NCBI RefSeq assembly: GCF_000739635.1
Contig: NZ_BATQ01000149.1
Span: forward strand, 1-44,925
Length of the DNA stretch: 44,925 nucleotides
From: Verrucomicrobium sp. BvORR034
Lineage (GTDB): Bacteria > Verrucomicrobiota > Verrucomicrobiia > Verrucomicrobiales > Verrucomicrobiaceae
Reading direction: 5' to 3'
Shown here: piece after piece, positions 1 to 41,043 of the stretch
Position numbering within the stretch: position 1 is the stretch's first letter
Layout: each line of letters begins with the position of its first letter
Notes under the pieces: model-generated
Seen by the model: the letters and a program-made list of their open reading frames with translations, nothing else
The model's database searches: none
What the model was told of the DNA's origin: nothing
Made by a program: the position numbers and the translations under genes

Positions 1-557
1 GTAAGCCTCTTGAACCCCCAGAATTGAAAGTGCGAAACTTGACGGACACTACCCGAGCGCCCAAAGCCCCGCGCCGAACTTCCAGGGAGATTGACGCCGT
101 AGCCGTCATTCCTGGCCTGCTCGTCCTGGCTTCAGGTCAGGATGGCCCCGTTCCAAAAGCTGCCAGCCACGTGCTTCTCCTCGGAGAGCTGCAACCGCTG
201 ATATTTGAAGTCACGACGGTCGTCAGCACCTTGGACGCCCTTCAATCGCCCACTCGGCTCGACGCATTGTCAGGCGCAGGCAGGTTGACAAAATATCGCA
301 TCCTGCCTAGGTGGCGACACATAGCCAGACAAGTCGCGCATCCAACCCGGTTCGTGTGCAAGAGGCAGGTTGAAAAACACCGCTCACCCTCCCCAACGGT
401 TGCCGGGAACGAACACTGGATGGTGGCGGGACCGTGTGTTGATGCGTTCGGACGGTAAGAGAGCACGCCCAAAAAGCCCCTGCTCACGAGACACTTGTTT
501 TGGAGCCCCAATTGTCGAAAGCAGCCTGTTGGCACGGCCTGCTATGGGTTGTCACGT
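1..557. other. Region with no supported gene
   Basis: No convincing gene is visible downstream of the immunity gene. Open frames on both strands are short and show no recognisable family. A minus-strand stretch at about 132-258 reads like ordinary protein (it includes FKYQRLQLSEEKHVAG) but is closed by a stop on each side and has no start, so it could be a decayed gene end or chance. Toxin loci of this kind often trail displaced toxin tips or orphan immunity genes; nothing here can be assigned to that. Confidence 0.4.
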
Positions 558-1013
558 TTATTTATTGCGAATTTTACGCTCCAAGAATTCTGCAAAATTA
601 GCCGCGTACAGCTCGCGGTTTTTACCGAATAATCGATAAACGGGATACTCTCCACTTTCGTCCCTCACTGAGGCATCAAGTATGAAAACCTCGCCAAAAT
701 CGGTTTCGCACACGGGAATCTCGCTTGCCGCTATCGTGCCATCTTTTATGTGGGCTAGATACTTGAACACGATGTCACCACCAAAAACTTCTTCAAATTC
801 CATCTGATATATCGAGAACACCTCATCACCAGTGATCTCCCCACCTCCATAGTTCCTCAAAAACCAAAGATAACTTGGAGGGAATGGCATCCCCAATCGC
901 TGCTCTGCTTTGCGGATCCACTGATCACTCGGCGCCCCCTCGGGCTCGCCGAACTCGACCCCATTGCCGCGATGTTGCTCAATCAGAGCTGCTGTCGAAT
1001 GGAATTCTCTCAT
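558..1013 (-). CDS. SUKH (SMI1/KNR4) family immunity protein
   Basis: About 151 residues. Likely antitoxin that binds and blocks the nuclease tip of the RHS protein encoded immediately upstream. The SUKH signature is visible: an N-terminal helix pair, then I-x-x-A-E-x-x-L-G with PFPPSYLWFLRNYGGG (the 'lP.sy..fl...nGg' motif), followed by acidic strands and a C-terminal ...FAEFLERKI helix. I start it at the ATG at 1013 because residues from there match the domain and the RHS stop codon ends at 1015, leaving a 1-nt gap that suggests coupled translation. A longer frame to 1226 lies entirely inside the toxin gene and is unlikely. No clear Shine-Dalgarno. GC over 601-900 is about 48 percent by hand count, well below typical genes in the window (about 67 percent at 13441-13560), consistent with an exchanged toxin-immunity module. 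Confidence 0.85.
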   Translation of the reverse strand: MREFHSTAALIEQHRGNGVEFGEPEGAPSDQWIRKAEQRLGMPFPPSYLWFLRNYGGGEITGDEVFSIYQMEFEEVFGGDIVFKYLAHIKDGTIAASEIPVCETDFGEVFILDASVRDESGEYPVYRLFGKNRELYAANFAEFLERKIRNK

Positions 1014-1014
1014 A

Positions 1015-4000
1015 CTAAAAGTCAGCTGCGCGTTGAATCCAATACTCCGAACGCCATGTGTCGAATACTGCACGGTCAATTCCGGAAGGCAACTGCCCGG
1101 TGTTGATGTGAAGAGTATTATAGTGCATTTGATGGAATCCGCCAGCAACCTCTGCAAGTGGTCCATCGGCAGTTTGGATTGTATGGTGAAGATTAACGGC
1201 TTTCCCGTCATATCCCACAGGAGCACGACCCGTTCTCATCCGCTCAAGATTCGTTCCTTGAACGAACTTTCCACGCTCTTTCCACGTCGTCAACTGTGAA
1301 GGATTAAACAGGTCATTTCGTTGATATACCCTATGACCGTTGATAGCCTTCGGCGTCCACTTGGTGCTTAGCCACCAAGCCCCCCCATCTTTTGCAACTA
1401 TCACCTCCGCTTCAAGCCCCCAACTTGGCCAAAGCGCGTTCCTTGCCGGCAGCAACGGGGCAGTTTCCATGCTCACCGAAAGCACGTAGGGCGCAGCCTT
1501 CCTGGCACCAAAACGGAGCATGCGAGATGCAACGGCAATGCCTTTTTCGGCCGCAGCGGGGCCAACAATCTGGATCGCGTTGCTGGCAAATGCAGCATCC
1601 TCACGTTCATCCTTTGTATAGTTGAGGTAAAGGTAGTTGTTCCAATAGTCTTCACTCAGAGATCCAGCCGATCCAAAAAGCTGGAAAATTTCTGCGGTGC
1701 TCACAAGGAGATGCGCACCGATGCCCCTACTCTGATGCAGCATCCCGCCCCCTGTGGGCACCTTTGGACTTAGCCTCATCGCTATTTCATAGGATGTAGG
1801 GGCACGCTGCTCTTCAATGCTTGATCTAAGATGCTTCCCGGCAAACTCAAACTGAGTAATATCATGCCCATAGTCCATGGGGCTATCTTCAGCCAAAGGG
1901 AGGTCAAACTTTTCGAAGAGTTTTTCTGCGCCTATCCAAGGCCAAGCCATCCCCAGATAATCCCACCGGTTCACCGGATCATTCCCGCAATACCCGTACA
2001 GGTTAAACCCGCCACTCTCCCCAAGCGGATCACGGCTGATCCAGCGCCCCAGCTTCGCGCTGTAATACCTGAACCCAAAGTAGCTCAGCCCCGTCTCCGC
2101 ATCGTGGTACTTGCTCTGATAACGGAACGGGCAGGCGTTGACATCACCCGACTGACCAACCATTTCGCCATAGGGGCCGTAAGAGTATTCTGCGACGGTG
2201 CTGCCCGACGCTTTGTCCACCACCTTGGTGATATTGCCGAGACCGTCGTGGATCGGCAGCAAAATACGACCCCCTTGTTCTTCGATGGCGATCAGTCCTC
2301 CAATGCCGCCTGCACCATCCAGCGTACCGGTGATATCCAACCCCCAAACGAACCTCCTGCGCGGGAGAACGACCCCGTCCACGACTCGATCCTCAAGCAT
2401 GGGGAGCCAGCCGTCCCACAACATGGCGCTAGCCTCCACCTTGGCCGGGAGGTTTACGTACGTGCGGGTTCGAATTCTCTGCACCCGTCGCCCATCACCA
2501 TCATATTGAAAAATCAATGCCTCGCTGATGAGGTCCGCCTCCTTGCTGGTGCCGGGCTTGCGAGCCATGGAGGTAAGATGCCCCATCCCGTTCCACGAAT
2601 ACACCCACTCACTGTCCTGAACCAACCGCCCTGACCCATCATAGACGAAGCTCTCAACCAAGCCTGGCACCACCACCCATACTTGCTTGTCAGCCACCGC
2701 ATTCGTGCCGCCCGTTCCCGCTCCGGCCAAGGTCCCCCGGACCAGCATCTCCACTCGCGTCACCCCCCCGCCATTCCATTCGGGCGCCACCGGCCAGAAT
2801 GCAGAATAGGCCCCTGTGTTTTGGTTCACCGTGATTTCCTCACCCTCTACTGGTCCGAGGGGGTGAAACACTCTGACTTTCGCCCCAGCGGCAACTGACC
2901 CGCTGACCCCATACCCTCTTTGGCCGAGTTCTCGACCGGTAACTTGATCCAGTCCATTGACAAAGAATGTCACCGGGCCGCCGCCGCTCAATCGATTTCC
3001 CCGCGCATCATAGTTGTAGTTCAACGAGGTCCCGTTCCCAAGATTCGCCCCCCGCAGGCATCCATTTCCGTCATAGGTCATGCCCGACCACGACACTCCC
3101 GAATTCGAAGTTCGCGACACTCGAAGCCCTCGCGGATTATAGCCGTGACTGGAGCTCACGACTAGAAGGCCGCCACTTGTCCTGGTCCCTACAGAAGTGA
3201 GCCAGCCCCGGTTGTTGTAGCCCCATGTGGTGGTGAGATTTCCCCGAGTGCAAGTCTGCACCCGTCCAAACGCGTCGTATGTATAGGTGGCAGAAAGTGT
3301 CGATGATCCTGCGGAGGAAATTCGGCCGAAGTTGTCGTAGCCATACGTGCAACTGGACACGATTGCGTCACCCTGGCTGACACTGGCACCGTTGATCCTG
3401 CCTTTGTTGTCAGCCCCCCGCTTTACATCCCACCCAGACCAGACGCCACCCGTGTGATGCTCTTCGGAGAGTTGACCATGAAGATAGGAAAACTGTCGGC
3501 CGTCGGTCAGGCTTTGGACCTGGCGGCGCGCTCCCAAGCTGGAAAAAGTTTGCGTTACGGTGCCAACCCCAGGAAACGTTTCCGCAATCTGGTAGTTGTC
3601 TGAATGAATGGATGTTGCAATATCCAAGCCGACGCCGGAACTCGCCAACGTGCCGTCTGGTCGATAATCAAAATTCTCCACCAATGAACCGGAGGCATAG
3701 TTCTTCTTGAGCACGGCTCCGTTTGCTGCGTGGTCCACGACCAATGACCCATTGACAGAAGTGCGTGTTGTGCCGCCAGCCAGATCAACCGTCGAGGCAA
3801 GAATTGGCTCGGCGACATCCCCGCTCAACTCAGTAAAATCGCCGACTGAGTTCCTTTTCACAACTTGTGTTGTTCCGGTTACGGAATCACTCGTCGTCAC
3901 CTGGTAACCCGGCGCACCACCATACTGGAAGCTACGGTCATACCCAAGTCCAAAGCTGCGAACCATCCTGCCACTGCCGTCCCACTCCATACCGTGTGCA

Positions 4001-7000
4001 ACTCCCCCGATGGATCCTCGAACACTACGAAGCTCTCCGTTCGGATAGGCCCATTGATTCAGATCGAACGCCACTCCTCCGCTACTGCCCGAAATCCGCT
4101 TAATTCTGCCATTTTCCAGCTCGACTTGGGGTTTATCGTCTGTTGGCCCGAGCGTCTGTGTCACGAAGGTTGACGCACCAGGTGCATCAGCTTTCATCTT
4201 GGTCTGGGCAGCAGCGAGCCCCCACGGAGTGAAGGTGGATTCTCCTGTGGTGGGGTCGTAAACCGTCCTGGACACTTCGATCCAGTCTTTCCCGGCATGA
4301 GGGTTTGCTGCGTCAAATCGCAACGCGCTGTTGTCAAATATCTCCTGTATCGTGATTACTTTGTTGTCATCCACCTGATTGACTGTGCGACTACGATCGA
4401 CGCCGCCTTCGCTCACAGTGACCGTAGTCCCATTTGGCTCGTGACTTAGACGCCTGGAAATCGGTTTGAAGGACGGACCTGATCCACCCAGGTAAGTCAC
4501 GGTGTTTGCAGCATCGTTGTAAGTCCAGGTTTCCGCCAGAACGTCATCCCCGCCAGACGGGGCTGGAATCTGGCGCAGCAGGGGTCTGCCATGCCCATCA
4601 AACCAAGTTTTAGTTTCAAAATGGGAGCCATCATTCCCATCTCGAGAGACCGTGGTGGCGCACAATCTCCCCAGCCCGCCCCCATTCTCCATGATTTCCA
4701 CACTCCAGCTCGTGGCGCTCCCACGTCTGCCTAAACCGCCTTTCGAACCTGTGATCCCCCATCGTCCGTCTCCATCCAAGTCGACAGTTCGACCACCTAC
4801 CGTAACGCTTCCTCCATTTGCATTCAAGCTCATGCTGAGGCCAGAGCCTCGGGTGTCACTATGCTCTGTCAGATCGCCGAATGCGGAAAGCGTGCTCGAC
4901 ACCTGCTTGTTGCCAGGCGCGGTCATGCTGGGCTGCAGGGGGGAACTGTAGTCAAAGTGGTATGTCCCTGACCAATTGATAACTTTCTCTGGCCTGAGGA
5001 GCCAATCTGGGCTCTCCAGCACAAACGTGTTTCCAGAGGCATCCGTCCCACCACGGGGACTCCCATAGATTCTCCGCTCGCCTGAGCTTGATACGCCTTC
5101 ATTGTAATAGAGGCTGGTTTTCTCCCCCCTCTTGAGGGTATAGCCTTTAGGCGCACCCCACGCAGTAAATTCAGTCGCTTCTGCGTTGCTCAACTCCAGA
5201 TCACCTGCGGCGGAAATCCGTTTGCTCACCATTCCCCCAAACCTGTTTAAGACAGCCTTGGATTTCACCCCTCCCTGATAAAATTCCCCCCAGCCAGTCA
5301 GCTGCTCGAAGGTGCTTTCATCTTGAAGCAGTGTTCGAACAGTTTTTTCCTGATATCCGTTTGAGTACACTATGCGAGCCACTCTCGATGAGGATGCAGG
5401 ATCAAATTCGACAACGTGACTTGGATGGTCATCTACAGATACACTGTACTTTTGGAGACCTGGTTCATAGGTACCAACCTCAACCCGATATGGAATACCT
5501 CCGAGGCTGCTGACTGTCGTGTGCGACAAGCCCGTCCAAGTATGAGCCAACATATGCTGCTTCCCGTCTACTTGCGACACCTCAAAAGCAGGGAACCCGT
5601 CAGCGTCATAGGTCAGCACCGTTCCATCCCTCTCCCAGTTTGAGCCTGAATACTTGATTTCACTCGGAGTCCACCCGGTAGAATTCCACCCATTCACGGT
5701 CCACTCAGCCTCCATAGTACGCGTTTTCCCGCCAGCAGTAACAACCACCTTTTTGATAATTGGATCCGTACTGGTAAATGGATTGATCCCGCTGAAGCAT
5801 GTGATGGCGGTTTGACTTGCAACCCCATCGTAGAGACTTGTCATCAGCCACTGATTATCCCCCTCGTACTCAAAGTAGAGCGGCCTCTCGACGTCATTCT
5901 TTGAACGACAATCAGAAGGTTCCTCGATACTTGTGACTGGCACCTCGTGGTCGTAGGCACGCACCTTCCAGGTGAGTTTTGGATCTTCAGTCTCCTCGGG
6001 ATCGTCCTTTACCCGCTCCAGCCAATGACTGATCCCGTTGTCCAACACCACCAGATGATTGATGTCAGTTGCCAGACGAGGCGTCTCTTCGGGATCCGGT
6101 CCGGAGGGGTTGCATAGGGTCACTGTCTTGAACGACAAGCTTTCCGTGGGATTGTAGAATCCCCGGGCGTCCTTCTCTCCAGCGTCTTTTGCCCAGTAGA
6201 ACTTCAACTCCTTGCGATAGCTCGTCTTATACACTATCTCGACAAGCAGATCCCCCCCTTTCACCTGGCAAAGCCTCGGCTGATGCCAAGCCGCCAGATA
6301 CGCCGCGCGGCTTTCGAAGCCGCTTTGGTTCTTCTGCTGCTCCGTAAACTCCTCACTTGGCGGGAAGTCAAACGAGCCTGGTTCAACGTTGGCTACGGAA
6401 AGCGGTTTGTCATGATCCACAATCACCACATTCGGGTCCGTCTCGTAGATGACCTCAAAAGCCTCGTTCGAACCCCTCAATTTTAGCGAGCCGAATCCCG
6501 ACCAATCGCATTCCAGCCACGCTGTCTGATTACGGTCGGAAACACCTCGTCCGACGTGAACCCTCACGGGAAACTCCTCCGAGAAGACCGGCTCCACCGT
6601 GCCAATTGCATAAGGCACCACTCCGTCGTTGGCACTGGAATTTGGATAGTGATCAGTAAAATTCGGGAAACCGACGGTCTCCGTCATCAATTGGAATCCA
6701 GCACCCTGGATTGGATAGTGCTGATGTCGAGCTCCGTCAGCATCCGATGAGCCAGTCGATGACCGATAGTAGTTAACCTTTGGCAAAAGAGGCATTTCGT
6801 ATCCAAACACTTCATCAATCGTAAGGCCTTCCTCCCAGTAAAATGACATTGCCATCTCCAGTCTGCCTACAAGATCGGCATCGTCGATATAGCTCGTCCA
6901 ACCGCTATTGCCCACATTGATTTCCGGCAGGTCCATCCAGGTCATGGCGGCTTGATATGCAACTGGCCCAGTACCCGTCCCTCCGTTCTCTGCCCCCCAC

Positions 7001-8136
7001 CTTCTCGATTTGTTCTCTACGACAGAGCCGCCATTTACTTTAATCCAATGGCTACCAGGAAGCTTGGTGGGATACAAGCGACGCAGTTTTTCTCCAATGT
7101 CGCCAAACTTTCCACGACTGTAGTAGGGCACCTCGTATCTTCTTTTGTAGAGCTCCGTCTGCACTTCCAAATGAGGCGCTTCGACTTCTGGCCATACTGA
7201 TGGTTCCACCAAAGTCTCCATTCCTTCTTGAATGGTTGCGGATGTTTGAAGGTGGCCAATCTTTGTGACGCTGTCATCTGGAGCAGTCACCTGAAATGCG
7301 CCGGATTCAACTATCCAGGAAAATCCTTCTGGATCCCTGCTGAACTCAATATTGGGATCGCAGCTCACGGCGTAGCCCCGATGATCACGCTTTGTTCCAG
7401 CATTGGATTGAATGGAAAATGGAGTGGAAAGTGACCCTCCCGTTATCGCATCATACTCAAAGTATGAGCTACCAGTGTTGTCGGGGTGCACCACAGTAAC
7501 CCACCTCGCATTTTCCCACCGACTGCCGACAAAGCCTCGTTTCTGAATGACGGGCCAATTTTCAATCGCACGCAACTGGTCGACAGCCGACGCAAACCTG
7601 GGCAACTGATCGTGGAGATTTTCAGCCGTCGTTCGCCCCAATGGCGTCCACTGTACTTGCCGCGGAATACCAGTTGATTCTGTTTCAACAGTCGAGACGC
7701 TAGCTTTGGCAGCGATGTATCCAGTACGCGTCAGCCAATCCAATTCTGACCGTGCCTGCTCCAGGGCCCTCACACCCAATTTGATGGAATCGATAGCACC
7801 ATCTTCTGGAAACGGATCAAGATCTTCGGGCCAGTCAATCAGTTGTGACTCAGTGATTGGGGTTAGAGTTGGTTCTGGCTCGTTGAAGGTCGCTTCCGGA
7901 TACTCGTCCGGGGCCACGAACGTGTCCCGACGCCACTCCCAGGCCTTGTGGAGACTGTCTTCCTCAATGCGTTTGCGAATCAACAGCATCCAATGCCGTT
8001 CCTGCACTGCTCTGAGCACGGATTCGATTGTCTGAGCTGAAAGCATGGAGCTACACGCGCAAAAGATCAGGCAGAGAAGGAACCTTACATAACGTGGCGA
8101 TTGACGGGCGAAGCTGAATGAGATTGCGTTGAACAT
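1015..8136 (-). CDS. RHS-repeat polymorphic toxin with C-terminal LHH (HNH/EndoVII) nuclease
   Basis: About 2373 residues. Start taken at the ATG at 8136, which gives a clean Sec signal peptide (basic SPRYVR, then hydrophobic FLLCLIFCACSSMLSAQ); an upstream extension to 8214 would overlap the preceding gene. The first thousand or so residues are an exported beta-rich region I cannot name. YD/RHS repeats follow (YTYDAFGRVQT, WGYNNRGWL), and the conserved core ends with GLSYFGFRYYSAKLGRW and DPLGESGGFNLYGYCGND near residue 2062. The remaining 311 residues are the variable tip. Its last ~95 residues carry NLERM-x-TGRAPVGYDGK, L-H-H (residues 2316-2318, bases 1183-1191), GPLAEV, a downstream H-x-x-H pair and a YW..RAADF end, matching the LHH nuclease family of the HNH/Endo VII fold. 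Expected role: DNA-cutting effector released from the RHS shell into competitors, neutralised by the SUKH protein. No PAAR, VgrG or TcdB-type domain is visible. Confidence 0.9.
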   Translation of the reverse strand: MFNAISFSFARQSPRYVRFLLCLIFCACSSMLSAQTIESVLRAVQERHWMLLIRKRIEEDSLHKAWEWRRDTFVAPDEYPEATFNEPEPTLTPITESQLIDWPEDLDPFPEDGAIDSIKLGVRALEQARSELDWLTRTGYIAAKASVSTVETESTGIPRQVQWTPLGRTTAENLHDQLPRFASAVDQLRAIENWPVIQKRGFVGSRWENARWVTVVHPDNTGSSYFEYDAITGGSLSTPFSIQSNAGTKRDHRGYAVSCDPNIEFSRDPEGFSWIVESGAFQVTAPDDSVTKIGHLQTSATIQEGMETLVEPSVWPEVEAPHLEVQTELYKRRYEVPYYSRGKFGDIGEKLRRLYPTKLPGSHWIKVNGGSVVENKSRRWGAENGGTGTGPVAYQAAMTWMDLPEINVGNSGWTSYIDDADLVGRLEMAMSFYWEEGLTIDEVFGYEMPLLPKVNYYRSSTGSSDADGARHQHYPIQGAGFQLMTETVGFPNFTDHYPNSSANDGVVPYAIGTVEPVFSEEFPVRVHVGRGVSDRNQTAWLECDWSGFGSLKLRGSNEAFEVIYETDPNVVIVDHDKPLSVANVEPGSFDFPPSEEFTEQQKNQSGFESRAAYLAAWHQPRLCQVKGGDLLVEIVYKTSYRKELKFYWAKDAGEKDARGFYNPTESLSFKTVTLCNPSGPDPEETPRLATDINHLVVLDNGISHWLERVKDDPEETEDPKLTWKVRAYDHEVPVTSIEEPSDCRSKNDVERPLYFEYEGDNQWLMTSLYDGVASQTAITCFSGINPFTSTDPIIKKVVVTAGGKTRTMEAEWTVNGWNSTGWTPSEIKYSGSNWERDGTVLTYDADGFPAFEVSQVDGKQHMLAHTWTGLSHTTVSSLGGIPYRVEVGTYEPGLQKYSVSVDDHPSHVVEFDPASSSRVARIVYSNGYQEKTVRTLLQDESTFEQLTGWGEFYQGGVKSKAVLNRFGGMVSKRISAAGDLELSNAEATEFTAWGAPKGYTLKRGEKTSLYYNEGVSSSGERRIYGSPRGGTDASGNTFVLESPDWLLRPEKVINWSGTYHFDYSSPLQPSMTAPGNKQVSSTLSAFGDLTEHSDTRGSGLSMSLNANGGSVTVGGRTVDLDGDGRWGITGSKGGLGRRGSATSWSVEIMENGGGLGRLCATTVSRDGNDGSHFETKTWFDGHGRPLLRQIPAPSGGDDVLAETWTYNDAANTVTYLGGSGPSFKPISRRLSHEPNGTTVTVSEGGVDRSRTVNQVDDNKVITIQEIFDNSALRFDAANPHAGKDWIEVSRTVYDPTTGESTFTPWGLAAAQTKMKADAPGASTFVTQTLGPTDDKPQVELENGRIKRISGSSGGVAFDLNQWAYPNGELRSVRGSIGGVAHGMEWDGSGRMVRSFGLGYDRSFQYGGAPGYQVTTSDSVTGTTQVVKRNSVGDFTELSGDVAEPILASTVDLAGGTTRTSVNGSLVVDHAANGAVLKKNYASGSLVENFDYRPDGTLASSGVGLDIATSIHSDNYQIAETFPGVGTVTQTFSSLGARRQVQSLTDGRQFSYLHGQLSEEHHTGGVWSGWDVKRGADNKGRINGASVSQGDAIVSSCTYGYDNFGRISSAGSSTLSATYTYDAFGRVQTCTRGNLTTTWGYNNRGWLTSVGTRTSGGLLVVSSSHGYNPRGLRVSRTSNSGVSWSGMTYDGNGCLRGANLGNGTSLNYNYDARGNRLSGGGPVTFFVNGLDQVTGRELGQRGYGVSGSVAAGAKVRVFHPLGPVEGEEITVNQNTGAYSAFWPVAPEWNGGGVTRVEMLVRGTLAGAGTGGTNAVADKQVWVVVPGLVESFVYDGSGRLVQDSEWVYSWNGMGHLTSMARKPGTSKEADLISEALIFQYDGDGRRVQRIRTRTYVNLPAKVEASAMLWDGWLPMLEDRVVDGVVLPRRRFVWGLDITGTLDGAGGIGGLIAIEEQGGRILLPIHDGLGNITKVVDKASGSTVAEYSYGPYGEMVGQSGDVNACPFRYQSKYHDAETGLSYFGFRYYSAKLGRWISRDPLGESGGFNLYGYCGNDPVNRWDYLGMAWPWIGAEKLFEKFDLPLAEDSPMDYGHDITQFEFAGKHLRSSIEEQRAPTSYEIAMRLSPKVPTGGGMLHQSRGIGAHLLVSTAEIFQLFGSAGSLSEDYWNNYLYLNYTKDEREDAAFASNAIQIVGPAAAEKGIAVASRMLRFGARKAAPYVLSVSMETAPLLPARNALWPSWGLEAEVIVAKDGGAWWLSTKWTPKAINGHRVYQRNDLFNPSQLTTWKERGKFVQGTNLERMRTGRAPVGYDGKAVNLHHTIQTADGPLAEVAGGFHQMHYNTLHINTGQLPSGIDRAVFDTWRSEYWIQRAADF

Positions 8137-8159
8137 GTTAGGCGATGGTGCGGTTGCCC

Positions 8160-10373
8160 TTAGGGAGTTGAAAATCCGGCGGCTGAGAGCCATACTGCGG
8201 GATGATCCTTCCACGCAGGATTTCTCCCTTGCGCCATTTCTGCCGAGTTCACCAATCCGTCCCGATCGGGATCGTTGGGCGGGGCTGAGTTCTTGTCTCC
8301 CACTCCGTCTCCATCAGAATCAGCAAGCGCAGGATTCAGGCCGAGCAGCACCTCGTCACTGTTTGAGAGCGTATCCCCATCTTGGTCCTCATTGGCGTCC
8401 GTGACGCCGTCGGCATCTGTGTCCGCCATCAACGGGTGAGTCCCCAAGTTGTGCTCGACAAGATTCACCAGACCATCCTGATCTGGATCCATCTGAGAAT
8501 CATTGACTCGCAAGTCCAGCCCCTTGGCGGGATACCTCCATTTGCCATAGCGATGCTCCCACAAATCTGACATGCCATCGCCATCAAGGTCACCCGGCGA
8601 AACCCTGGTGAAGACTGGGTTGCTGGATGTCAGCGCAGATTCGGCCCAGTCAGGAACTCCATCGCCATCGGAATCTACTGAGGGGGCATCATTCGCTGGA
8701 TAAAGTCTCTTCTCCATCAACCAGCGGATGTCGGGTGCCCATCCAGGGTGGAGTGCAGACAACGAGTTCGCATTGAATGGGGACAACAACAGCCGCGCTT
8801 CCTCATAATTCAGTACACCGTCCCCATCGGGATCTCCAATGGCGTCATCAGCATTATTTGGATCTAGCCCATATGAATTCTCAAAGACATCGGTCATCCC
8901 GTCGAGGTCCGAATCATATGCTACGAGATCCACATCAAGCGCTATCCCAGCTTGGTACTGCGCCAAGTTGGTGAGGCCATTTGAATCTAGGTCACCTTGG
9001 GCATCAGCGAGATTTAAAGGGTCCAGGCCAAAATGAACTTCGATTCGATCAGGAATTTCGTCACTGTCCTGGTCCGCGGTGTCAACCAGGAAATAGTCTG
9101 TGTACAGTGCCCCCCAACCCAAGCGGTTGCTCAAGTCATAAGCAGAGCTTGGGTCCGTGTAGTACACCATTAGCTCCTCGTAGTCACTGAGCCCATCATC
9201 ATCACAATCGACATCCAGGTCATTGAGCCCGTGCTGCATCTCAAACACGTACCCAAGCCCGTCACCATCGGCATCCGGCCCATAGGGAAGTGTATCCAAA
9301 TGATTTGGGAGACCGTCAAGATCAGCATCGCCCAACACTTCACCGTACCATTTGATGCCGTTGTACCAGCTTAAATTATCTGAATCGTACGCAAACGGAT
9401 CCATTTGATCTCCAATGCCATCCCCGTCAGTATCAATTGGCGTATCAGGATAGGGATCCCAGAAGTTCGCCAAACCGTCCCAATCATTGTCGTAGTAGAC
9501 CCAAGAATCCCAGGACAAACCGTTTATGCTGCTGGTGTTATACAAGTCAAGCGGGGCGGGGTCATAGGAATCGGGAAAGCCGTCGGAATCGGAATCTAAG
9601 GGTAACTCTTCTGGCATGTAATCCCACCAATTCGCCACCCCGTCTCCGTCGGCATCTTCGTAGAGGCGATCATACCATTCTCTATTGTTCACGGTGCTGT
9701 AGTTGGCCACGTCCTGTGGCGCAGGATCGTCAACGTTTGTCACGCCATCATTGTCATCGTCAAAGATGGTGTACGGGTAATAATCGTTGAAATTGACAAT
9801 GCCGTCACCATCGTCGTCTCCGAGCGCGTTTCCGTTCCAGTAATATGTCGCCCCATTTGCTCCATACGACGTGTTTGAAGGATCATAAGGAGCTGGGTCG
9901 TCTGGATTCTTGTATCCGTCGCCGTCATAGTCGTAGTAAGTGGCACCCGCGTATGACGGGAGAATACCCCCTGGGTACTGGACGTCATAGAACTGATAGT
10001 ATTCGTCCCAGTCGCTGCAGGAATCTCCATCGCTATCCCAGGTGGTTAGTGAGACGGGCATGACCAACCGCACAATATGCAGTTCGTCTCCATCACCGAA
10101 GCCGTCCATGTCCGTATCAAAAACAAACGGGTTGGAGCCTTCTTGAGCCTCCTCCAGGTTGGTCGCACCATCTCCGTCAACATCCAGATTCTGCAGATCC
10201 ATTGCTGTCAAGGTGGTGGCAATTTGGGAGACCGGGTTGGTCCATGTATCACTCACACCGTCCGCATTGGTGTCGGACCAGCTTGCACCCAGCGGCAGCA
10301 GGTGGATATGCCAGAAGAGGACGGCTACAGAGAAAGCGGTCAACGCCCCCCTCCTTCCAGAAAAAGCAATCAA
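8160..10373 (-). CDS. Secreted thrombospondin type-3 repeat (calcium-binding) protein
   Basis: About 737 residues. Almost the whole mature protein is made of D-x-D-x-D-G-x-x-D loops (DVDGDGATN, DTDMDGFGDGDE, DDDGDGIVN, DADGDGVAN, DTDGDGIGDQMDP and many more), the thrombospondin-3 calcium-binding repeat. Spacers such as DPAPYDPSN recur between units. Such proteins fold into rigid Ca-dependent rods outside the cell. I choose the TTG at 10373 because it directly precedes a signal-peptide-like run (GALTAFSVAVLFWHIHLL) and has AGGAAAGG four bases upstream; an ATG at 10571 would add 66 residues that do not look like a leader. The stop lies 23 nt before the RHS start, so the two are probably co-transcribed and may work together at the surface. 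The role of the pairing is inference. Confidence 0.8.
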   Translation of the reverse strand: MIAFSGRRGALTAFSVAVLFWHIHLLPLGASWSDTNADGVSDTWTNPVSQIATTLTAMDLQNLDVDGDGATNLEEAQEGSNPFVFDTDMDGFGDGDELHIVRLVMPVSLTTWDSDGDSCSDWDEYYQFYDVQYPGGILPSYAGATYYDYDGDGYKNPDDPAPYDPSNTSYGANGATYYWNGNALGDDDGDGIVNFNDYYPYTIFDDDNDGVTNVDDPAPQDVANYSTVNNREWYDRLYEDADGDGVANWWDYMPEELPLDSDSDGFPDSYDPAPLDLYNTSSINGLSWDSWVYYDNDWDGLANFWDPYPDTPIDTDGDGIGDQMDPFAYDSDNLSWYNGIKWYGEVLGDADLDGLPNHLDTLPYGPDADGDGLGYVFEMQHGLNDLDVDCDDDGLSDYEELMVYYTDPSSAYDLSNRLGWGALYTDYFLVDTADQDSDEIPDRIEVHFGLDPLNLADAQGDLDSNGLTNLAQYQAGIALDVDLVAYDSDLDGMTDVFENSYGLDPNNADDAIGDPDGDGVLNYEEARLLLSPFNANSLSALHPGWAPDIRWLMEKRLYPANDAPSVDSDGDGVPDWAESALTSSNPVFTRVSPGDLDGDGMSDLWEHRYGKWRYPAKGLDLRVNDSQMDPDQDGLVNLVEHNLGTHPLMADTDADGVTDANEDQDGDTLSNSDEVLLGLNPALADSDGDGVGDKNSAPPNDPDRDGLVNSAEMAQGRNPAWKDHPAVWLSAAGFSTP

Positions 10374-19490: not shown

Positions 19491-20111
19491 TTGAAACCTG
19501 AAATCGCATCCCCCGACTGGAACCAGCTCTATGAAACCGGCGAAACCCCATGGGACAAAGGCCTGCCCACGCCCGTGCTGGCGGAGGTGCAGCAACGCCA
19601 TCCCCAGCTCTTCCAGGGCGAGGTGATGGTGCCGGGCTGCGGCACAGGCTCTGACGCCCGCTGGCTGGCCGCTCAGGGCTGCCGCGCCACGGGGGTGGAC
19701 ATTGCCCCGCTGGCCGTGGATCGAGCCCGCTCACTGGACGCAGGACAAGGCGTCCAGTACGTGTTGGCAAGTCTGTTCGACCTGCCTGAGGAGCTCCGGG
19801 GCAAGTTCGACCTCGTCTGGGAGCACACCTGCCTGTGCGCATTGCCTCCGGAATTGCGGAAGTCTTATATCCAGGGCGTGTATGCCGCGCTCAAAGGTGG
19901 AGGCCTGGTAGCGGGCGTGTTCTTCATCGATCCCGAGATGGACCCCGGCGAAACCGGTCCCCCCTTTGGGATCTCGCCGGAGGAACTGACCGGGCTCTGG
20001 GCGGAAGCGGGGTTCAGAGTGCAGGAGTCTTGGGTGCCCACGACCGGCTATCCGGGCAGGGTGGGACGGGAGCGGGTGCTGATCGCGGCGAAGGCGGCGA
20101 AGGCGGCGTGA
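19491..20111 (+). CDS. TPMT-like SAM-dependent methyltransferase
   Basis: 206 residues. Begins W-x-x-LYETGETPWDKGLPTP, the recognisable start of the thiopurine S-methyltransferase family, followed by the SAM-binding motif VMVPGCGTGSDARWLA, the acidic D of motif II (GVDIAPLAVDRA) and DLVWEHTCLCALPPELR, the family's motif IV region. Members methylate thiols, selenols or tellurite, or act on small thio compounds. No ATG is available, so a TTG at 19491 is used. The C-terminal tail has short Ala-Lys repeats. Cytoplasmic; apparently a single-gene unit, with a tandem REP-like array immediately downstream. Confidence 0.85.
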   Translation: MKPEIASPDWNQLYETGETPWDKGLPTPVLAEVQQRHPQLFQGEVMVPGCGTGSDARWLAAQGCRATGVDIAPLAVDRARSLDAGQGVQYVLASLFDLPEELRGKFDLVWEHTCLCALPPELRKSYIQGVYAALKGGGLVAGVFFIDPEMDPGETGPPFGISPEELTGLWAEAGFRVQESWVPTTGYPGRVGRERVLIAAKAAKAA

Positions 20112-20210
20112 AAAGTTGAGAGTGAAAAGTGGTAAGTGGGGCTGCGGCGGGCTCGCGTGGCGGAGGCGTTTTACCGAGCAATTCCGAGCTGCCTACAGAA
20201 AGCCACTCAG

Positions 20211-20318
20211 TCGTGGCTGGGTTCGTGAGAACCTGGTCAGGCCGCTTGTCACCCATGACGAATCAGATCACCCCACAGGGCCGCGCCACCCTCCGCACTC
20301 TCACGAGTGCAGCTACGA
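20211..20318. repeat. BIME-like element, copy A
   Basis: 108 bp. Ends are inverted repeats TCGTGGCTG (20211-20219) and CAGCTACGA (20310-20318). Just inside the left end is GGTTC-GTGA-GAACC (20220-20233); just inside the right end, read on the minus strand, is CACTC-GTGA-GAGTG (20296-20309). Each half is thus GTRG-CTG plus a 5-bp stem with a GTGA loop, the layout of a REP; the two halves face each other. Confidence 0.75.
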
Positions 20319-20341
20319 GCTACCGACGGGAAGCCACTCAG

Positions 20342-20448
20342 TCGTAGCTGGGTTCGTGAGAACCTGGTCAGGCCGCTTATCACCCATGACGACCGGATCA
20401 CCCCACAAGGCCCCGCCACCCTCCGCACTCTCACGAGTGCAACTACGA
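20342..20448. repeat. BIME-like element, copy B
   Basis: 107 bp, direct copy of the element at 20211 with a period of about 131 bp. Left end TCGTAGCTG, hairpin GGTTC-GTGA-GAACC at 20351-20364; right minus-strand hairpin CACTC-GTGA-GAGTG at 20426-20439, right end CAACTACGA (one change against copy A). The interior differs at several scattered positions. Confidence 0.75.
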
Positions 20449-20482
20449 GCTATAACGGAGCGCGGGTGCCGTGCGTCGCCCT

Positions 20483-21766
20483 CTACAACAAATCCTCCAG
20501 TGCCCCGGCGCTGGTATCAAACAGACGCTGGTGCACACGGAAGGCGCTGCGGTCGGTGAGATTCGCAATCCAGTCGCACACCAGACGGGCGCGCTGATCC
20601 TTCTCCGGCTCGGCCTTGATGGCCTTTGCCACAGGCTCTGGCAGCAGGTGCAGGGAGCGGCGTCCCGGTGCAGGTTCGATGTAATGATCCTTCAATGCAT
20701 TGAAGAGCCGCTCAATGACGCTGGCGGCCTTGAAATCCAGCTGCTGAAGCTGCGGGGTGTCGAAGACGAGCTCCTTCGCGATGCGTTTGTTCACCTTGGC
20801 ACGCGCGGCAATGTCAGGCTCCACCACCAAGCCGAAGTGATAGCGACGCGTGCTGGCACTGAGGAAATTACCCCGCTCCTCCAGGTGGCAGGCGCGGATG
20901 TGCTCGCCGATGCTCCGCCCCAGACGGGCCTCCACCTTGCCATCACGCATGGCCTTGAGCAGGAAGTTCACGTGGGCGGCCTCAGCCTCTGAGAGGGTCC
21001 GCCGGCCGGCCCAGGCCTCAAGTTTGACCGGTGTGATAAACCCCGCCTGGATCGCATCGGCGAGGTCGTTGATGGAATACGCCGTGTCATCCGCCCAGTC
21101 CATGATCTGGCACTCCAGAGAGCGGAATCCGTTGCGTTCCTTGCCCGGGGTCAGTTCAGTGGGAAAGGCTTGAGATCCCAGGACGAAATCCAGGTAGGTC
21201 TCCTGGTCGTTGTAGAGATAGTGATTGGCGGCCTCCGGTGTCTCCACCTGCAGGGTCTTGTACTTGAGCACCCCATCGAGCAGCGCCCGGGTGGCGTTGA
21301 TGCCATCGCGGCTCTCAGCAAAGAGCGTCACCGTGAGCTGGCGCAGCGTTTGGGCATTTCCCTCGAACCCTCCATACGGGGCCATGAGGTCGTGCAGCGC
21401 CCTCTCTCCCGTGTGGCCAAAGGGCGGATGCCCCAGGTCATGGGCCAGACAGGCGGCTTCCACGAGGTCCGCATCCACACTCTCCCCGTCTCTCAGCAGT
21501 TCGCTCGATTTGCTGAGCCAGCCACAGATGGAGCGCCCGATCTGGGCCACCTCCAGACTGTGGGTAAGGCGGGTGCGGTAGAAGTCATACTCCCCACCCA
21601 GGAAGGAGTAAAACACCTGGGTCTTCCCCTGAAGGCGCCGCAATGCGGAACTGTGCAGAATCCGGTCCCGGTCGATTTGAAACGGCGTCCGGTGGTCCTG
21701 GCCTGAAGTAAGCCGGGGCTTGGGATGCTCGGTATCGAAGGCCGAGTAGAGTCGGTTCACGGACAT
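20483..21766 (-). CDS. dgt: Deoxyguanosinetriphosphate triphosphohydrolase (dGTPase-like, HD domain)
   Basis: 427 residues from the ATG at 21766. HD-superfamily metal site: RTRLTHSLEVAQIGR (first His), then CLAHDLGHPPFGHTGE (HD pair and following His), and SINDLADAIQ-type later Asp (WADDTAYSINDLADA). The N-terminal DRDRILHSSALRRLQGKTQV is diagnostic of the dGTPase family. It hydrolyses dGTP (or other dNTPs in the short dGTPase-like branch) to nucleoside and triphosphate, adjusting dNTP pools in the cytoplasm. The preceding large lipoprotein gene ends 29 nt upstream on the same strand, so co-transcription is likely. No Shine-Dalgarno is obvious. Confidence 0.92.
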   Translation of the reverse strand: MSVNRLYSAFDTEHPKPRLTSGQDHRTPFQIDRDRILHSSALRRLQGKTQVFYSFLGGEYDFYRTRLTHSLEVAQIGRSICGWLSKSSELLRDGESVDADLVEAACLAHDLGHPPFGHTGERALHDLMAPYGGFEGNAQTLRQLTVTLFAESRDGINATRALLDGVLKYKTLQVETPEAANHYLYNDQETYLDFVLGSQAFPTELTPGKERNGFRSLECQIMDWADDTAYSINDLADAIQAGFITPVKLEAWAGRRTLSEAEAAHVNFLLKAMRDGKVEARLGRSIGEHIRACHLEERGNFLSASTRRYHFGLVVEPDIAARAKVNKRIAKELVFDTPQLQQLDFKAASVIERLFNALKDHYIEPAPGRRSLHLLPEPVAKAIKAEPEKDQRARLVCDWIANLTDRSAFRVHQRLFDTSAGALEDLL

Positions 21767-21795
21767 TGCGGCGCTTGGGAGAGGGAGAAACAGGA

Positions 21796-23994
21796 TCAGT
21801 CGAAGGAAACCACGTCGGAGATCGCCCAATGCAGGGAGTTCCGGGTCACGCCATTCTCTTCAAAGATCCGGCCGTCCAGAGCCCCAAAGGGCTTCACCCA
21901 CTTGAGGTTTTCCTTGAGTTCCTTGGCCTTCTCAGGCGTCTGGGTGGGAGAGAGCGTGGAGGCCACAGCCAGATAGTCGGCCAGGGCACCCACATCCAGC
22001 TTCCACACGCAACCGTCCACCGTCTTCGTCGCCGGCTGGTTCAGGTCGCCCGCAAAAGACTCCGCCGCCTCTTTCGAGGTGCTCAGGAGCAACACCTTGT
22101 CATTGATGCTGGCCACGGGCAGGAGATCCCCGCTCAGGAAAGGCAGCCCGTAGAAGTAGGTGGTGACACCGTTCTTCTCCGACGTGATGGGATCCCCCAG
22201 CTTGAAGAGCGAAGGAGCCCCGGGTTCCGACGGGATCAGACCGTTGATGGATTCGCTGATCGTCGCCCAGCCCTTGCCCAGTTCTTCCCGGTCCTTCACC
22301 GCACCCACCGTGGTGATGCGGGGGAACTTCGAGCCCTTGGACTCCGGAGGCAGGCCGGGCAGTTCAGGCATTTTGCCATTCACGTCCAGGATCACGGCCA
22401 GTTCACTGCCCATGCCCTTGTCGTCCATGTTCTTGTCCGCCTCATAGGCCTTCAGCAGCACTGGGAGGAAGGTCGATTCAAACTGGGCAAACTGCTGGCC
22501 GCCATCGGGCCCGGCAATGCCCGCTTTCACGAGTTCCTGGGCACCGGTGTAGAGCATGCCTGCCAGCTTTTCCATCCAGGCGCGGAAGTCCTTGCCGTAG
22601 CCTTCGTTCCGGTGGTAGGCAATGCCGAAGACCACCCCCGCCTTGTCGATAAGCTTCGCGTAGTCCAGCGGCTTGCCGTGATCCAGGAACTTGGGCTTGA
22701 TGCCGCCGTAGGATTCGAAGTGCACACCCTTGTCCCACCAGGCTGCAGCCGTCAGCGTGCTGCTCTCTGCGCCATAAACCGCCTTTTCCAGCGGAGCCAG
22801 TTCCCCGAGCTGTTTGTCCAGCACGGCGCCCATTTCCTTGAACATCTCGTTCTCCTTCATGGCATCCACCAGACCGCGCAACATTGGCACGAAGGGCTGG
22901 TCATCATTGAGAGCCCCCATCGTTGCAGAGCTGGCGTAGGTCAGACCCACGAGGTTTTTGCCCGTGTAGGGCAGCAGGCGGGCCATTTCCGGCTTGGAGA
23001 GTACTGAGGCTGCAGGATCTGCCACCAGGCTCAGGTGGTCCAGGTTCATGCCGCAAGCCAGCACCAAGTGGCTGTCCACCACGCCCCAGGCCAGCTTGAA
23101 CTTCTTCGCCTGCACCGCGTCGTACGCTTTTTCAATGGTCTTGACCGTCTGTTCTGGCAGCCCTTCGGGGATCATGGCCAGCATCTGGGCTTGGTTCTCC
23201 TCTGGGAGCAGCAGTGCGAGATCCACTGTGGCCACGCGGAAGTCATGACCTCCGGGAGTCTTCAGATCGCTCATCTGGAAGATCTTCTTCTCTTCCAACT
23301 GCTTGGTGTTGTTCAGGAACGCCAGAGCATCCTCCGGCTTGGCAGTCTTCACCCCCACGACCAGCGGCATGAGCTCAAATTTGCCAATGAAGTCCGCCAG
23401 TCGCTCAATCGATGCGGGGTCGCTGAGGAACGACTGCAGGTAGATCATGGGATTGGATCCCACCTCCTCGCCTTTCAGGCTCGCCGCGCCACCCGCGAGC
23501 AGGGCCTTGAAGTACACCTCATTGTAGAGGCGGTTGAAATCCCGCAACAGGGCCGCAGTCTGCGCAAATCCAGCTCCACCGGCGATGAAAATATCATCCC
23601 CCCACATTTCCTGGAGGGTGTTGAGGGACTTGTCTCCCGCCGTGGGCGCAGGCGTTTTGTCCTGCACCAGCGCGTTCATGTCCTTCCAGTAGGCGGACTT
23701 CTTCAGCTCTTCCAGATGCTGCTTGAGCTGTGTGGTGCCGAAGTAGAACTCCGTTCCTACCGGCAGCTTGGCCACAAAGCCGAGCTTCGCCGCATGATCC
23801 GCCAGGGACGGCGCCTTGGGCGGAGGGACCACGGCAGCCGGGGACGGCGAAGCGGGGGCTACGCTGGATGGGGCACCTGAGCCTGCTTCTGCACCTGGGC
23901 CTGGAGTGTCTTTTTTCTCACATTGGGTCAGCGCCAGGGTGACACCGGCTGACAGGAACAGCGCGTGATAACGCAGTCGGGGGGATATTTTCAT
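21796..23994 (-). CDS. Large putative lipoprotein, function unknown
   Basis: 732 residues. The N-terminus (MKISPRLRYHALFLSAGVTL, then ALTQC) looks like a type II signal peptide with Cys at residue 25, although Q at -1 is unusual for a lipobox. A Pro/Ala/Ser-rich linker (residues ~30-60) precedes a long alpha/beta body with repeated amphipathic segments (KLGFVAKLPVGTEFYFGT, MPLVVGVKTAKPEDALAFL, KLDVGALADYLAVASTL), reminiscent of the bacterial DUF3352-type proteins, but I cannot name a family with confidence. Probably envelope-located. The following dGTPase gene starts 29 nt after its stop, suggesting joint transcription without an evident functional link. Confidence 0.75.
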   Translation of the reverse strand: MKISPRLRYHALFLSAGVTLALTQCEKKDTPGPGAEAGSGAPSSVAPASPSPAAVVPPPKAPSLADHAAKLGFVAKLPVGTEFYFGTTQLKQHLEELKKSAYWKDMNALVQDKTPAPTAGDKSLNTLQEMWGDDIFIAGGAGFAQTAALLRDFNRLYNEVYFKALLAGGAASLKGEEVGSNPMIYLQSFLSDPASIERLADFIGKFELMPLVVGVKTAKPEDALAFLNNTKQLEEKKIFQMSDLKTPGGHDFRVATVDLALLLPEENQAQMLAMIPEGLPEQTVKTIEKAYDAVQAKKFKLAWGVVDSHLVLACGMNLDHLSLVADPAASVLSKPEMARLLPYTGKNLVGLTYASSATMGALNDDQPFVPMLRGLVDAMKENEMFKEMGAVLDKQLGELAPLEKAVYGAESSTLTAAAWWDKGVHFESYGGIKPKFLDHGKPLDYAKLIDKAGVVFGIAYHRNEGYGKDFRAWMEKLAGMLYTGAQELVKAGIAGPDGGQQFAQFESTFLPVLLKAYEADKNMDDKGMGSELAVILDVNGKMPELPGLPPESKGSKFPRITTVGAVKDREELGKGWATISESINGLIPSEPGAPSLFKLGDPITSEKNGVTTYFYGLPFLSGDLLPVASINDKVLLLSTSKEAAESFAGDLNQPATKTVDGCVWKLDVGALADYLAVASTLSPTQTPEKAKELKENLKWVKPFGALDGRIFEENGVTRNSLHWAISDVVSFD

Positions 23995-39311: not shown

Positions 39312-40814
39312 ATGATCCGCCCCTTCACCACCGCCACCCTGGCACTCGCCTGCGCGGCTTCGGTTGTTTCAGCCAACCCCGCCGCCGCCCGTCCCAACGT
39401 CCTCCTGCTGTGCGTGGACGACCTCAAGCCCGTGCTCGGTTGCTATGGGGACGCGCTGGCCAGAACGCCAAACCTCGACCGGCTCGCCAGCCGGGGCCTG
39501 CGGTTTGACCTGGCCTACTGCAACCAGGCGGTCTGCTCGCCGTCGCGGAACAATCTCATGCTGGGCTCCCGCTCCACCTCCCTTGGCATCTACGGCTTGA
39601 AGGAGAACTTCCGCGAAGCCGTGCCCGATGCCGTCACGCTGACGCAATATTTCATGAACCACGGCTGGCGGGCCGAGGGGGTGGGCAAGATCCTTCACAA
39701 GGGTCACGGCAATCATGATGATCCGGCCTCGTGGAGCGTGCCATTCCAGCCAGACAGCGTGGTGGAGTACCGCGACACGAGCAGCCCCACCGCCGGGCAG
39801 CTCACCCGTGAGGAGGCTTACTTCGGCAACCAGCAGCTGGGCAAGATCGGCAGCCTCCCCCGCGGCCAGGCATGGGAGGCCCTGGACGTGCCCGACAACG
39901 CCTATGCCGACGGTCGTATTGCGGAGGAGGGAGTGAAACGGCTCCAGGATTCACGGCAGCGGCCAGAGACTCCGTTTTTCCTCGCACTCGGTTTTGTGAA
40001 ACCTCACCTGCCCTTCACCGCGCCGAAGAAGTACTGGGACTTCTACGACCGTTCCAAGTTTGTCCTGCCCACCCTGCGCAACGCCCCCGAAGGAGCCCCG
40101 GGCTACGCGGGCAAAACTTTGGGGGAACTCAACAACTACGATCCCATCCCACAGCGTCCGCCGCTCAGCGAGGAGATTCGCCGACAGATCCTGCATGGCT
40201 ACTATGCCAGCATGAGCTACATGGACGCGCAGATCGGCAAAGTTCTGAATGAGCTGGACCGGCTCAAGCTGGCAGACAACACGATCATCGTCCTCTGGGG
40301 AGACCACGGCTGGCACCTGGGTGACCATGGCATGTGGACCAAGCACACCAGCTACGAACAGGCCAATCATATCCCGTTGCTGATGGTCGCGCCAGGCGTG
40401 ACGAAACCCGGCACTCACACCCGACAACTTGCGGAAACGGTGGATATCTACCCCACGCTGGTGGAGTTGGCTGAGCTGCCTATGCCTGTAGTCCCCCAAC
40501 CCATGGATGGGGTGAGTCTGGTGCCCGTGCTGAAGGATCCAGAGAAACGTGTGCGGGATCACGCCTACCATGCTTTTCCTCGGCAGCGCGATGGGAAGCA
40601 GGTAATTGGCCGCGCCATCCGGACAGAGCGCTACCGGCTCGTAGAGTGGAAAGTCCCCGGTGAGGCGGCCGATACGGCGGATCTTGAGTTGTATGACTAT
40701 CAGGCCGATCCCGCCGAGTCACGGAATTTGGCGAAGGAGAAGGTCGAGGTTGTGGCGGAGCTACGGAAGATCTTGGGTCGCCATCCAGAAGCGAAGCCCA
40801 AGCCAGGGGCGTGA
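39312..40814 (+). CDS. Exported sulfatase, iduronate-2-sulfatase-like
   Basis: 500 residues. Signal peptide (TTATLALACAASVVSA) then the sulfatase core: RPNVLLLCVDDLKPVLGCYG with the metal-binding DD (residues 36-37), and the C75-S-P-S-R79 motif in which cysteine is converted to formylglycine. Later metal/substrate residues appear in FFLALGFVKPHLPF and IIVLWGDHGWHLGDHG. The layout (KPHLPF, DHGW-x-LG) is that of the iduronate-2-sulfatase/choline-sulfatase side of the family. It removes sulfate from sulfated polysaccharides in the periplasm, a common trait of Verrucomicrobiota. A sulfatase-modifying enzyme is not in the window. Starts at the ATG at 39312. Confidence 0.93.
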   Translation: MIRPFTTATLALACAASVVSANPAAARPNVLLLCVDDLKPVLGCYGDALARTPNLDRLASRGLRFDLAYCNQAVCSPSRNNLMLGSRSTSLGIYGLKENFREAVPDAVTLTQYFMNHGWRAEGVGKILHKGHGNHDDPASWSVPFQPDSVVEYRDTSSPTAGQLTREEAYFGNQQLGKIGSLPRGQAWEALDVPDNAYADGRIAEEGVKRLQDSRQRPETPFFLALGFVKPHLPFTAPKKYWDFYDRSKFVLPTLRNAPEGAPGYAGKTLGELNNYDPIPQRPPLSEEIRRQILHGYYASMSYMDAQIGKVLNELDRLKLADNTIIVLWGDHGWHLGDHGMWTKHTSYEQANHIPLLMVAPGVTKPGTHTRQLAETVDIYPTLVELAELPMPVVPQPMDGVSLVPVLKDPEKRVRDHAYHAFPRQRDGKQVIGRAIRTERYRLVEWKVPGEAADTADLELYDYQADPAESRNLAKEKVEVVAELRKILGRHPEAKPKPGA

Positions 40815-40905: not shown

Positions 40906-41009
40906 TCGTAGCTGCGTTTGTAAAAACGTGGTCAGGCCTCTGCTCCCCCAGGGCTTTCTTTCCACCCACAGACCGCGCCACTCTCCGCACTCTCACGAGT
41001 GCAGCTACG
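40906..41009. repeat. BIME-like element, copy C
   Basis: 104 bp. Left end TCGTAGCTG (40906-40914), hairpin CGTTT-GTAA-AAACG (40915-40928); right minus-strand hairpin CACTC-GTGA-GAGTG (40988-41001) and end CAGCTACG. Against copies A/B the left stem has changed on both sides of two base pairs (G-C to C-G, C-G to T-A), and the loop changes from GTGA to GTAA. The middle is unrelated in sequence. Confidence 0.75.
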
Positions 41010-41043
41010 CACTCATCCCCTCGCGCACAGCCACCCCGGTCAA

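Follow-up and report, generated by a model that had tools for sequence, protein, structure and literature searches.

REP elements of the GTAG super-family carry a GTRG tag at one end and a stem usually of 6-9 bp, form facing dimers with the tag outside (HH dimers), among which heterodimers are common, as well as tandem clusters, and occupy sites downstream of genes, often between convergent genes (PMC3733652). The transposase TnpA-REP (RAYT) binds the REP hairpin in single-stranded DNA, and the GTAG tag helps to choose the cut (PMC8266576). According to the same source, TnpA-REP has been tested from E. coli, Stenotrophomonas, and Marinomonas, and how REPs spread is still open. In Pseudomonas fluorescens SBW25 the inverted REP doublet (REPIN) is the proposed unit, lies near a specific RAYT, and forms ordered tandem clusters; the largest one given in PMC3116915 comprises four REPINs and a further REP, and 12 GI and GIII sequences are described there in two REP arrays of the tandem type. 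In the BIMEs of E. coli, REP types face each other in tandem, and the REPs are longer with a required bulge (PMC8266576). The Stenotrophomonas maltophilia Group 3 (subclass 2.5) REPtron with its transposase TnpA-Sm has an 8-bp perfect stem after GTAG, a 3-nt loop, and a transposase with HUH and Tyr motifs (PMC8266576). The Verrucomicrobium elements described below share the tag, the stem length range, the facing heterodimers, the tandem clusters, and the downstream sites with the GTAG super-family; the inverted doublet, the nearby RAYT, and the ordered clusters with SBW25; the tandem facing types with E. coli; and the 8-bp stem directly after the tag and the HUH plus Tyr protein with S. maltophilia. 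They differ from the S. maltophilia REPs in a 4-nt GTRA loop and one T-G wobble, and from those of E. coli in stems of 8 bp that are unbulged. Unlike SBW25, they include an array of 19.8 copies of a 135-bp unit and a transposase gene inside an array, both in a sister genome (G067).

The architecture, the dimer type, the tandem clusters, and the RAYT link are thus already known for GTAG REPs. New within the literature searched are the Verrucomicrobium family, its GNRA-type loop, a candidate transposase located within an array, and the length that arrays can reach. The portions of main text covered by our literature search contain no account of REPs in Verrucomicrobium. Opitutus terrae is the REP-rich species of the phylum in PMC3733652, where the words "spinosum," "GNRA," and "tetraloop" are absent from the main text. 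Comparison with the 24 families of that study (for example O. terrae GTAG-20, mostly GTGG) was by its text rather than by its consensus table, and one of its O. terrae families may be related to the Verrucomicrobium modules.

The window, i.e., the whole stretch of 44,925 nt from Verrucomicrobium sp. BvORR034 (the host) that was analyzed, contains two sites that we read, with a probability of about 90%, as BIMEs (REPINs): two facing, non-identical GTRG REP modules that are recognized, cut, and moved or re-joined by a TnpA-REP/RAYT transposase. The features of the window are as follows.

20211-20318, + strand: BIME copy 1, a facing REP pair with GTRG outside; matches to model R1 (see below) at 20211-20241 (+) and 20288-20318 (-)
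20211-20236, + strand: left REP module of copy 1, TC-GTGG-CTGGGTTC-GTGA-GAACCTGG
20293-20318, - strand: right REP module of copy 1, TC-GTAG-CTGCACTC-GTGA-GAGTGCGG
20319-20341, no strand: 23-bp spacer between BIME copies 1 and 2
20342-20448, + strand: BIME copy 2
20342-20367, + strand: left REP module of copy 2, TC-GTAG-CTGGGTTC-GTGA-GAACCTGG
20423-20448, - strand: right REP module of copy 2, TC-GTAG-TTGCACTC-GTGA-GAGTGCGG
40906-41010, + strand: BIME copy 3, at site 2; modules at 40906-40931 (+) and 40985-41010 (-)
41044-41146, + strand: BIME copy 4, at site 2; modules at 41044-41069 (+) and 41121-41146 (-)
19491-20111, + strand: ORF left of site 1 (ORF call only)
20483-21829, - strand: HD-domain phosphohydrolase right of site 1 (PF01966, PF13286)
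39312-40814, + strand: sulfatase left of site 2 (PF00884)
41223-42266, + strand: DAHP synthase right of site 2 (PF00793)

Site 1 consists of two direct BIME copies of 108 and 107 bp, as the first-pass annotation of this DNA had read from the letters; their spacing is 131 or 130 bp, and their reported likeness is 89% and 95% in two blocks. The left ends of copies 1 and 2 are TCGTGGCTG and TCGTAGCTG, and the right ends are CAGCTACGA and CAACTACGA. The inverted ends that the annotation gave as TCGTRGCTG/CRGCTACGA hold broadly, with CRGCTACGA slightly wrong since the second right module reads GTAGTTG. Its inner stems, GGTTC-GTGA-GAACC in the left module and CACTC-GTGA-GAGTG (minus strand) in the right one, are exact in both copies; the stem length of 5 bp has to be corrected, because the CTG before the 5-bp stem pairs with the YGG after it (C-G, a T-G wobble, and G-C or G-T), so that the stem has 8 bp and GTRG abuts the hairpin. 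Each module is built as TC-GTRG followed directly by the hairpin CTGYRYTY-GTRA-RARYRYGG. In a set of 76 modules collected from the first 30 host loci with a search pattern that demanded GT[AG]G and inner pairing and left the outer three pairs free, GT[AG]G abuts the 8-bp stem in every case, as it does in the 44-sequence set introduced below, and the loop is GTGA in 48, GTAA in 26, and GTCA in 2. The module pattern with up to two mismatches has 9 matches in the window (100 shuffles gave a mean of 2.22 and a maximum of 7, none reaching 9); eight of them are the modules of the two sites, and the ninth, at 44289, is single and has no partner. The right module at 20293..20318 folds as an 8-bp hairpin with DNA parameters. 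Against shuffles, one single module folds better (z -2.81) and the other less so (z -1.88), and the whole BIMEs fold no better than their own shuffles (z -0.77 and -0.34). An integron attC, suggested by the unit size, was set aside by eye, as the BIME ends lack attC core sites.

Gene context was scored for the clusters of site 1 and site 2, which both lie between larger ORFs. The ORF at 19491..20111 (+) and the gene at 20483..21829 (-) are convergent, so site 1 lies downstream of both; a 147-aa ORF at 20116-20559 (TTG start) that crosses site 1 is taken as spurious. Two other observations were made in the window. Short AT-rich words, e.g., GAAAAGTTGAGAGTGAAAAGT or AACTGAAAACTTGAAACT, occur at 20111, 32742, and 41178; two of them adjoin BIME sites, and they are possibly another short dispersed motif. 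A 2399-aa ORF at 1015-8214 (-) matches an RHS repeat, carries at its C terminus an LHH (HNH/Endo VII-like) nuclease domain, and, judged by these matches, encodes a putative polymorphic-toxin-like protein.

Model R1 was built from 44 sequences (43 of the 63 distinct ones in the 76-module set plus one more). In the 8.58-Mb host assembly it finds about 148 modules, which form 48 clusters on 34 contigs; the module number may be an undercount since it comes from the best 150 places, of which two (E 0.5 and 2.1) were dropped. At least two modules are present in 36 of the 48 clusters and at least four in 18. When the 100 neighboring module pairs were classified, 56 were facing with GTRG outside, 55 of these being 97-121 bp long; 34 had the opposite order with gaps of 15-48 bp, and 10 pointed in the same direction (7 one way, 3 the other). 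The host thus has inverse REP pairs with a linker, often in tandem, as in BIMEs/REPINs. Inverted ends and a facing-pair length mostly within 97-121 bp would also suit MITE-like tandem repeats of a DDE-type or other non-Y1 transposon, an origin that we regard as hardly credible given that each end is a hairpin with GTRG on one strand, which is the TnpA-REP form, and that REP-type Y1 genes are found among the modules in G067 and at a further locus, L160 (see below). The two modules of a facing pair are usually different. In the host, 51 of 54 facing pairs have unlike stems, each combining a "G-class" with an "A-class" stem (G or A at the second inner stem position); this count uses 54 of the 56 pairs, leaving out one of 416 bp and one lacking its full sequence, and its tandem pairs are non-independent.

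Stem pairing was examined in two sets. Among 348 distinct stem-blind copies, all five inner pairs are formed in 326, four in 20, and three in 2, compared with a mean of 115 and a maximum of 135 fully paired copies when the 3' arms were redealt (200 shuffles); this test is the less biased one, with outer bases fixed by the pattern and loci mostly fetched for holding modules. In the 44 sequences of R1, two-sided base swaps are seen at three stem positions (A-U/G-C 24/20, U-A/C-G 28/16, and C-G/U-A 32/12). Paired cells, two-sided changed cells, and the covariation score in this set are above all 500 shuffles, and its rows had been picked for pairing, with the inner five pairs 100% paired by construction. 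Two further measures on the same set do not stand out: the number of pairs with two-sided change was as high in 151 of 500 shuffles, and that of further pair types in all 500. GTRG at the foot of a stem-loop, stem covariation, and a dispersed high copy number are features that the modules share with REP elements.

The sister genome G067 contains 229 matches to a pattern in which the ten inner stem letters are free, and the reversed control gives 0. The stems of the facing pairs are unlike in 79 of 79 cases, and in 49 of these a G-class faces an A-class stem; the pairs come from 12 of 14 stretches chosen from the pattern matches, the other two having given no facing pair. A strict rule that every dimer combines G-class with A-class was rejected, since it describes 51/54 pairs in the host but 49/79 in G067, and only the rule of unlike stems is general. 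The units within one G067 array are 93% identical on average, versus 66% between arrays (98 and 132 sampled pairs, respectively). R1 at E <= 0.001 has matches in 16 of 68 genomes of the taxonomic family, with at least 107 in the host, at least 107 in G067, 100 in G063, which belongs to another genus, 12 in G065, and between 1 and 7 in each of the other twelve; at E <= 1e-5, 13 of 384 genomes across the class have matches, host included. Four stretches of G063 and G065 (38.6 kb) contain 4 modules standing alone at >=40 bits, one further weak match of 24.1 bits, and no facing pair. The exact module pattern was found in 31 stretches of named genomes, 28 labeled as Verrucomicrobiota of several groups, 2 labeled just "bacterium," and 1 Lentisphaerae. 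The annotation had proposed a REP/BIME family and counted a low copy number or stems without covariation against it. The proposal is supported by the copy number in the host and G067, by the stem pairing well above shuffled arms, by the facing layout, and by the RAYT genes in relatives described below.

The same sites were compared between genomes. Window site 1 has two BIMEs in the host, 12 modules forming six facing pairs in G067, and none in G065, where the DNA of both neighbors is present and the modules are absent. Site 2 has two BIMEs in the host, none in G065, and a different, 144-bp tandem array in G067. Junctions at both sites were assessed by eye, with insertion points that are approximate; the site alignments revealed neither an excision junction nor a target duplication. 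The modules might instead be RNA elements (terminators or mRNA stabilizers) kept by selection for a transcript hairpin, their mobility being incidental: site 1 lies between convergent genes, a frequent REP place (PMC3733652), and hairpins with G-U pairs form in RNA too. We consider this improbable, because Rfam gives no match at gathering score in the window, G065 lacks the site 1 modules while retaining DNA of both neighbors, and a terminator has no need of the 19.8-copy array. Selection may act on some copies after insertion. As a separate observation, the G067 counterpart of site 2 (L252, G067:C1:1979600-1982500) has 5.7 copies of its 144-bp unit at 400-1295 and 3.4 copies at 2015-2504, with a 217-aa Y1-like ORF (1380-2033, PF01797) between the arrays and only a partial 12.2-bit R1 match. 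A tandem array thus encloses a second transposase-like gene, here with a different repeat.

A divergent Y1 transposase frame lies at C1:4876656-4877300 of G067, within the array beside tpiA and with 17 modules around it, 11 on the left and 6 on the right. The frame has 215 codons between stops, or 201 from the first GTG, and was found by checking a weak PF01797 match (30.5 bits) for modules. Against the NCBIfam model NF047646, "REP-associated tyrosine transposase," it scores 61.1 bits, below the cut-off of 80, a difference from TnpA-Sm; these scores would place the predicted protein near the NF047646 model and outside it. The best solved relative by sequence is PDB 4er8, E. coli TnpA-REP with a REP hairpin (E 0.0025), and the predicted fold (mean pLDDT 83.8) also has 4er8 as its best Foldseek match (E 5e-8; TM 0.70 by target and 0.55 by query length), followed by the IS608 and ISDra2 transposases. 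The motif MPDHxH (HUH) and Tyr152 of YIxxNP show no variation among the 6 aligned proteins. The stretch WQRDSYDHVLRN aligns with the WQ region of TnpA-REP, in which W94, Q95, E100, H101, and R104 have been discussed for GTAG recognition (PMC6006769); W-Q and H..R line up.

Twelve loci, the query included, score at least 116 bits in 29 genomes that were mostly chosen for holding modules. GTRG plus an 8-bp stem and a GNRA loop occurs within 600 bp at 6 of the 12, on both sides in five, namely L208 (the query, G067), L209 and L228 (G052), L214 (G344), and L216 (G443), and on one side at L212 (G022); at the other 6 high-scoring loci no such module was found within 600 bp. This means that 5 of the 11 nearest relatives of the G067 transposase have GTRG hairpins of this build beside them, and the background is 1 match in 66 loci (207,400 bases), itself the REP of another Y1 gene. 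Three of the six flanked loci (L209, L212, and L228) have stops in frame. The stems vary between genomes (for example CTGCGGGC-GCAA-GCCCGTGG in G052), and the tag, the length, and the GNRA-type loop are constant. In a tree of 15 of the 21 proteins (a motif filter left out L210, L213, L214, L220, L230, and L231), eight high-scoring rows group together at 93/96, just under the strong-support mark of the tool. The flanked proteins do not form one clade in this 15-row tree: flanking takes three changes, and 64 of 500 shuffles were as low.

An independent case is L160 ("bacterium isolate WY5.bin88"), which was picked by the exact module pattern alone, independent of any transposase. A transposase frame at 245-1075 (minus) there scores 239 bits against the six-protein profile, and all 8 R1 matches in its 7,287 bases lie within 74-1234, on both sides of the conserved part of the frame, with none elsewhere. 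The other 30 of the 31 exact-pattern loci show no such transposase in the DNA searched (up to 8 kb each). A Y1 HUH gene flanked by the same REP, the arrangement called REPtron, is therefore seen in G067 (both sides), in G344 (L214, both sides), and around or inside the L160 frame. The annotation had expected a RAYT gene among the same modules of the host; this was borne out in the G067 array and at L160, and not in the host assembly, where the best relative of the G067 protein scores 29.9 bits. We also note that two L160 modules (527-556 and 560-590) lie inside the transposase frame, introducing no stop, just before the WQ..DH..R stretch. REP insertions have been reported in some subclass 2.8 transposases (PMC6006769).

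Of the 15 PF01797 matches in the host, six are full length, and the two of these six that were checked (L031 and L034) are IS200-like by NCBIfam. On this basis the resident full-length IS200-like Y1 transposases could be supposed to move the modules. We judge this very unlikely: R1 run over 43 PF01797 loci of nine genomes, all 15 host matches included, gave one match with E 0.82 and no hairpin, five further Y1 genes gave one R1 match of 11.3 bits and E 0.27 (L190), and beside three of the six host genes there are GTRG hairpins particular to those genes, whose stems are different. The IS200-size Y1 genes were accordingly rejected as the source of the modules, there being no convincing modules beside them, as there would be for IS200/IS605 ends, and their own hairpins being different. 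A profile of the IS200-size Y1 proteins found nothing in 156 module-bearing loci (582,462 bases, many overlapping), and the same profile also misses the G067 transposase at E 1e-4. The own hairpins of L032, L034, and L035 are inverted and flank each gene, at 1428 (-) and 1970 (+) in L032, 1334 (+) and 1962 (-) in L034, and 1349 (-) and 2037 (+) in L035; one example is GTAG-CCGGTGGT-GAMA-ACCACCGG. L034 matches the IS200 type at 63 bits (cut-off 55) and the REP type weakly at 25.9 bits (cut-off 80). In addition, G067 has many copies of a larger Y1-type protein (about 361 aa; frames span roughly 355-392 aa, e.g., C1:4066157 and C1:4068672) in which PF01797 is matched as two pieces, and the host has several (L037, L040, L041, and L043).

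The tpiA locus carries the transposase with arrays on both sides in G067. The host counterparts are split between two contigs, the left gene lying at the start of C123 and tpiA near the end of C125, with modules up to both contig ends, which indicates that the assembly breaks inside the tpiA array; in G065 the two genes are about 0.1 kb apart and there are no modules, i.e., the site is empty. For eleven of the 48 host clusters, a contig end is found within 200 bp. Together with the break in the tpiA array, this makes the absence of the transposase from the host assembly weak evidence, and we infer that the host may still carry the gene. The host family may otherwise be an orphan whose transposase has been lost and whose copy number changes only by unequal recombination or replication slippage within arrays, a possibility that we take seriously at rather less than even odds. 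That the host assembly has nothing closely related to the G067 transposase points that way, as do arrays that are homogenized within and diverged between in G067, as from recombination. The assembly break and the clusters at contig ends weaken the first of these points, and local recombination by itself would not account for dispersal to 48 places. Such loss would concern the host only and is compatible with TnpA-REP mobility as the explanation for the family.

The preferred reading, BIMEs moved by a TnpA-REP, can be put as a series of steps. The RAYT would recognize the module hairpin and the GTRG tag in single-stranded DNA, cut next to the hairpin, and move or re-join the BIME unit. Tandem arrays would then be built by local copying, either through the transposase or through unequal recombination, and would be homogenized array by array. 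The G067 protein would bind and cut the modules in this way, and movement may be ongoing. As to the cut position, E. coli TnpA-REP cleaves at a CT on the 5' or the 3' side of the REP (PMC8266576), and a similar cut near the modules is conceivable. The tag base (A or G) was compared with upstream CT or CC, and CT within ten bases before the module occurs for 51 of 66 GTAG and 54 of 73 GTGG modules (9 of the 148 being cut off or off-pattern and left out), which is uninformative. Because 51 of 54 host pairs combine G- and A-class stems, and all 79 G067 pairs have unlike stems with 49 of them G with A, we also entertain a bolder version, which we think unlikely as a whole. Here the whole heterodimer would move as one unit, its two ends differing in function as the left and right ends of IS200/IS605 do, the RAYT would drive array growth, the gene in its own array would be the source locus, and the proteins and modules would represent an undescribed RAYT clade and REP class, with a GNRA-type loop and an 8-bp stem, that has spread through Verrucomicrobiota.

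These arrays carry a warning, in that they can break an assembly at the very place where the transposase may sit. The family also provides a clean REP case in another phylum, with a complete sister genome that has more than 200 modules and arrays of up to about 20 units, one candidate transposase in an array, related transposases whose REPs keep the build and change the stem, and full, expanded, and empty sites in close relatives. With these resources in G067 and its relatives, the identity of the mobile unit and the growth of the arrays become testable.
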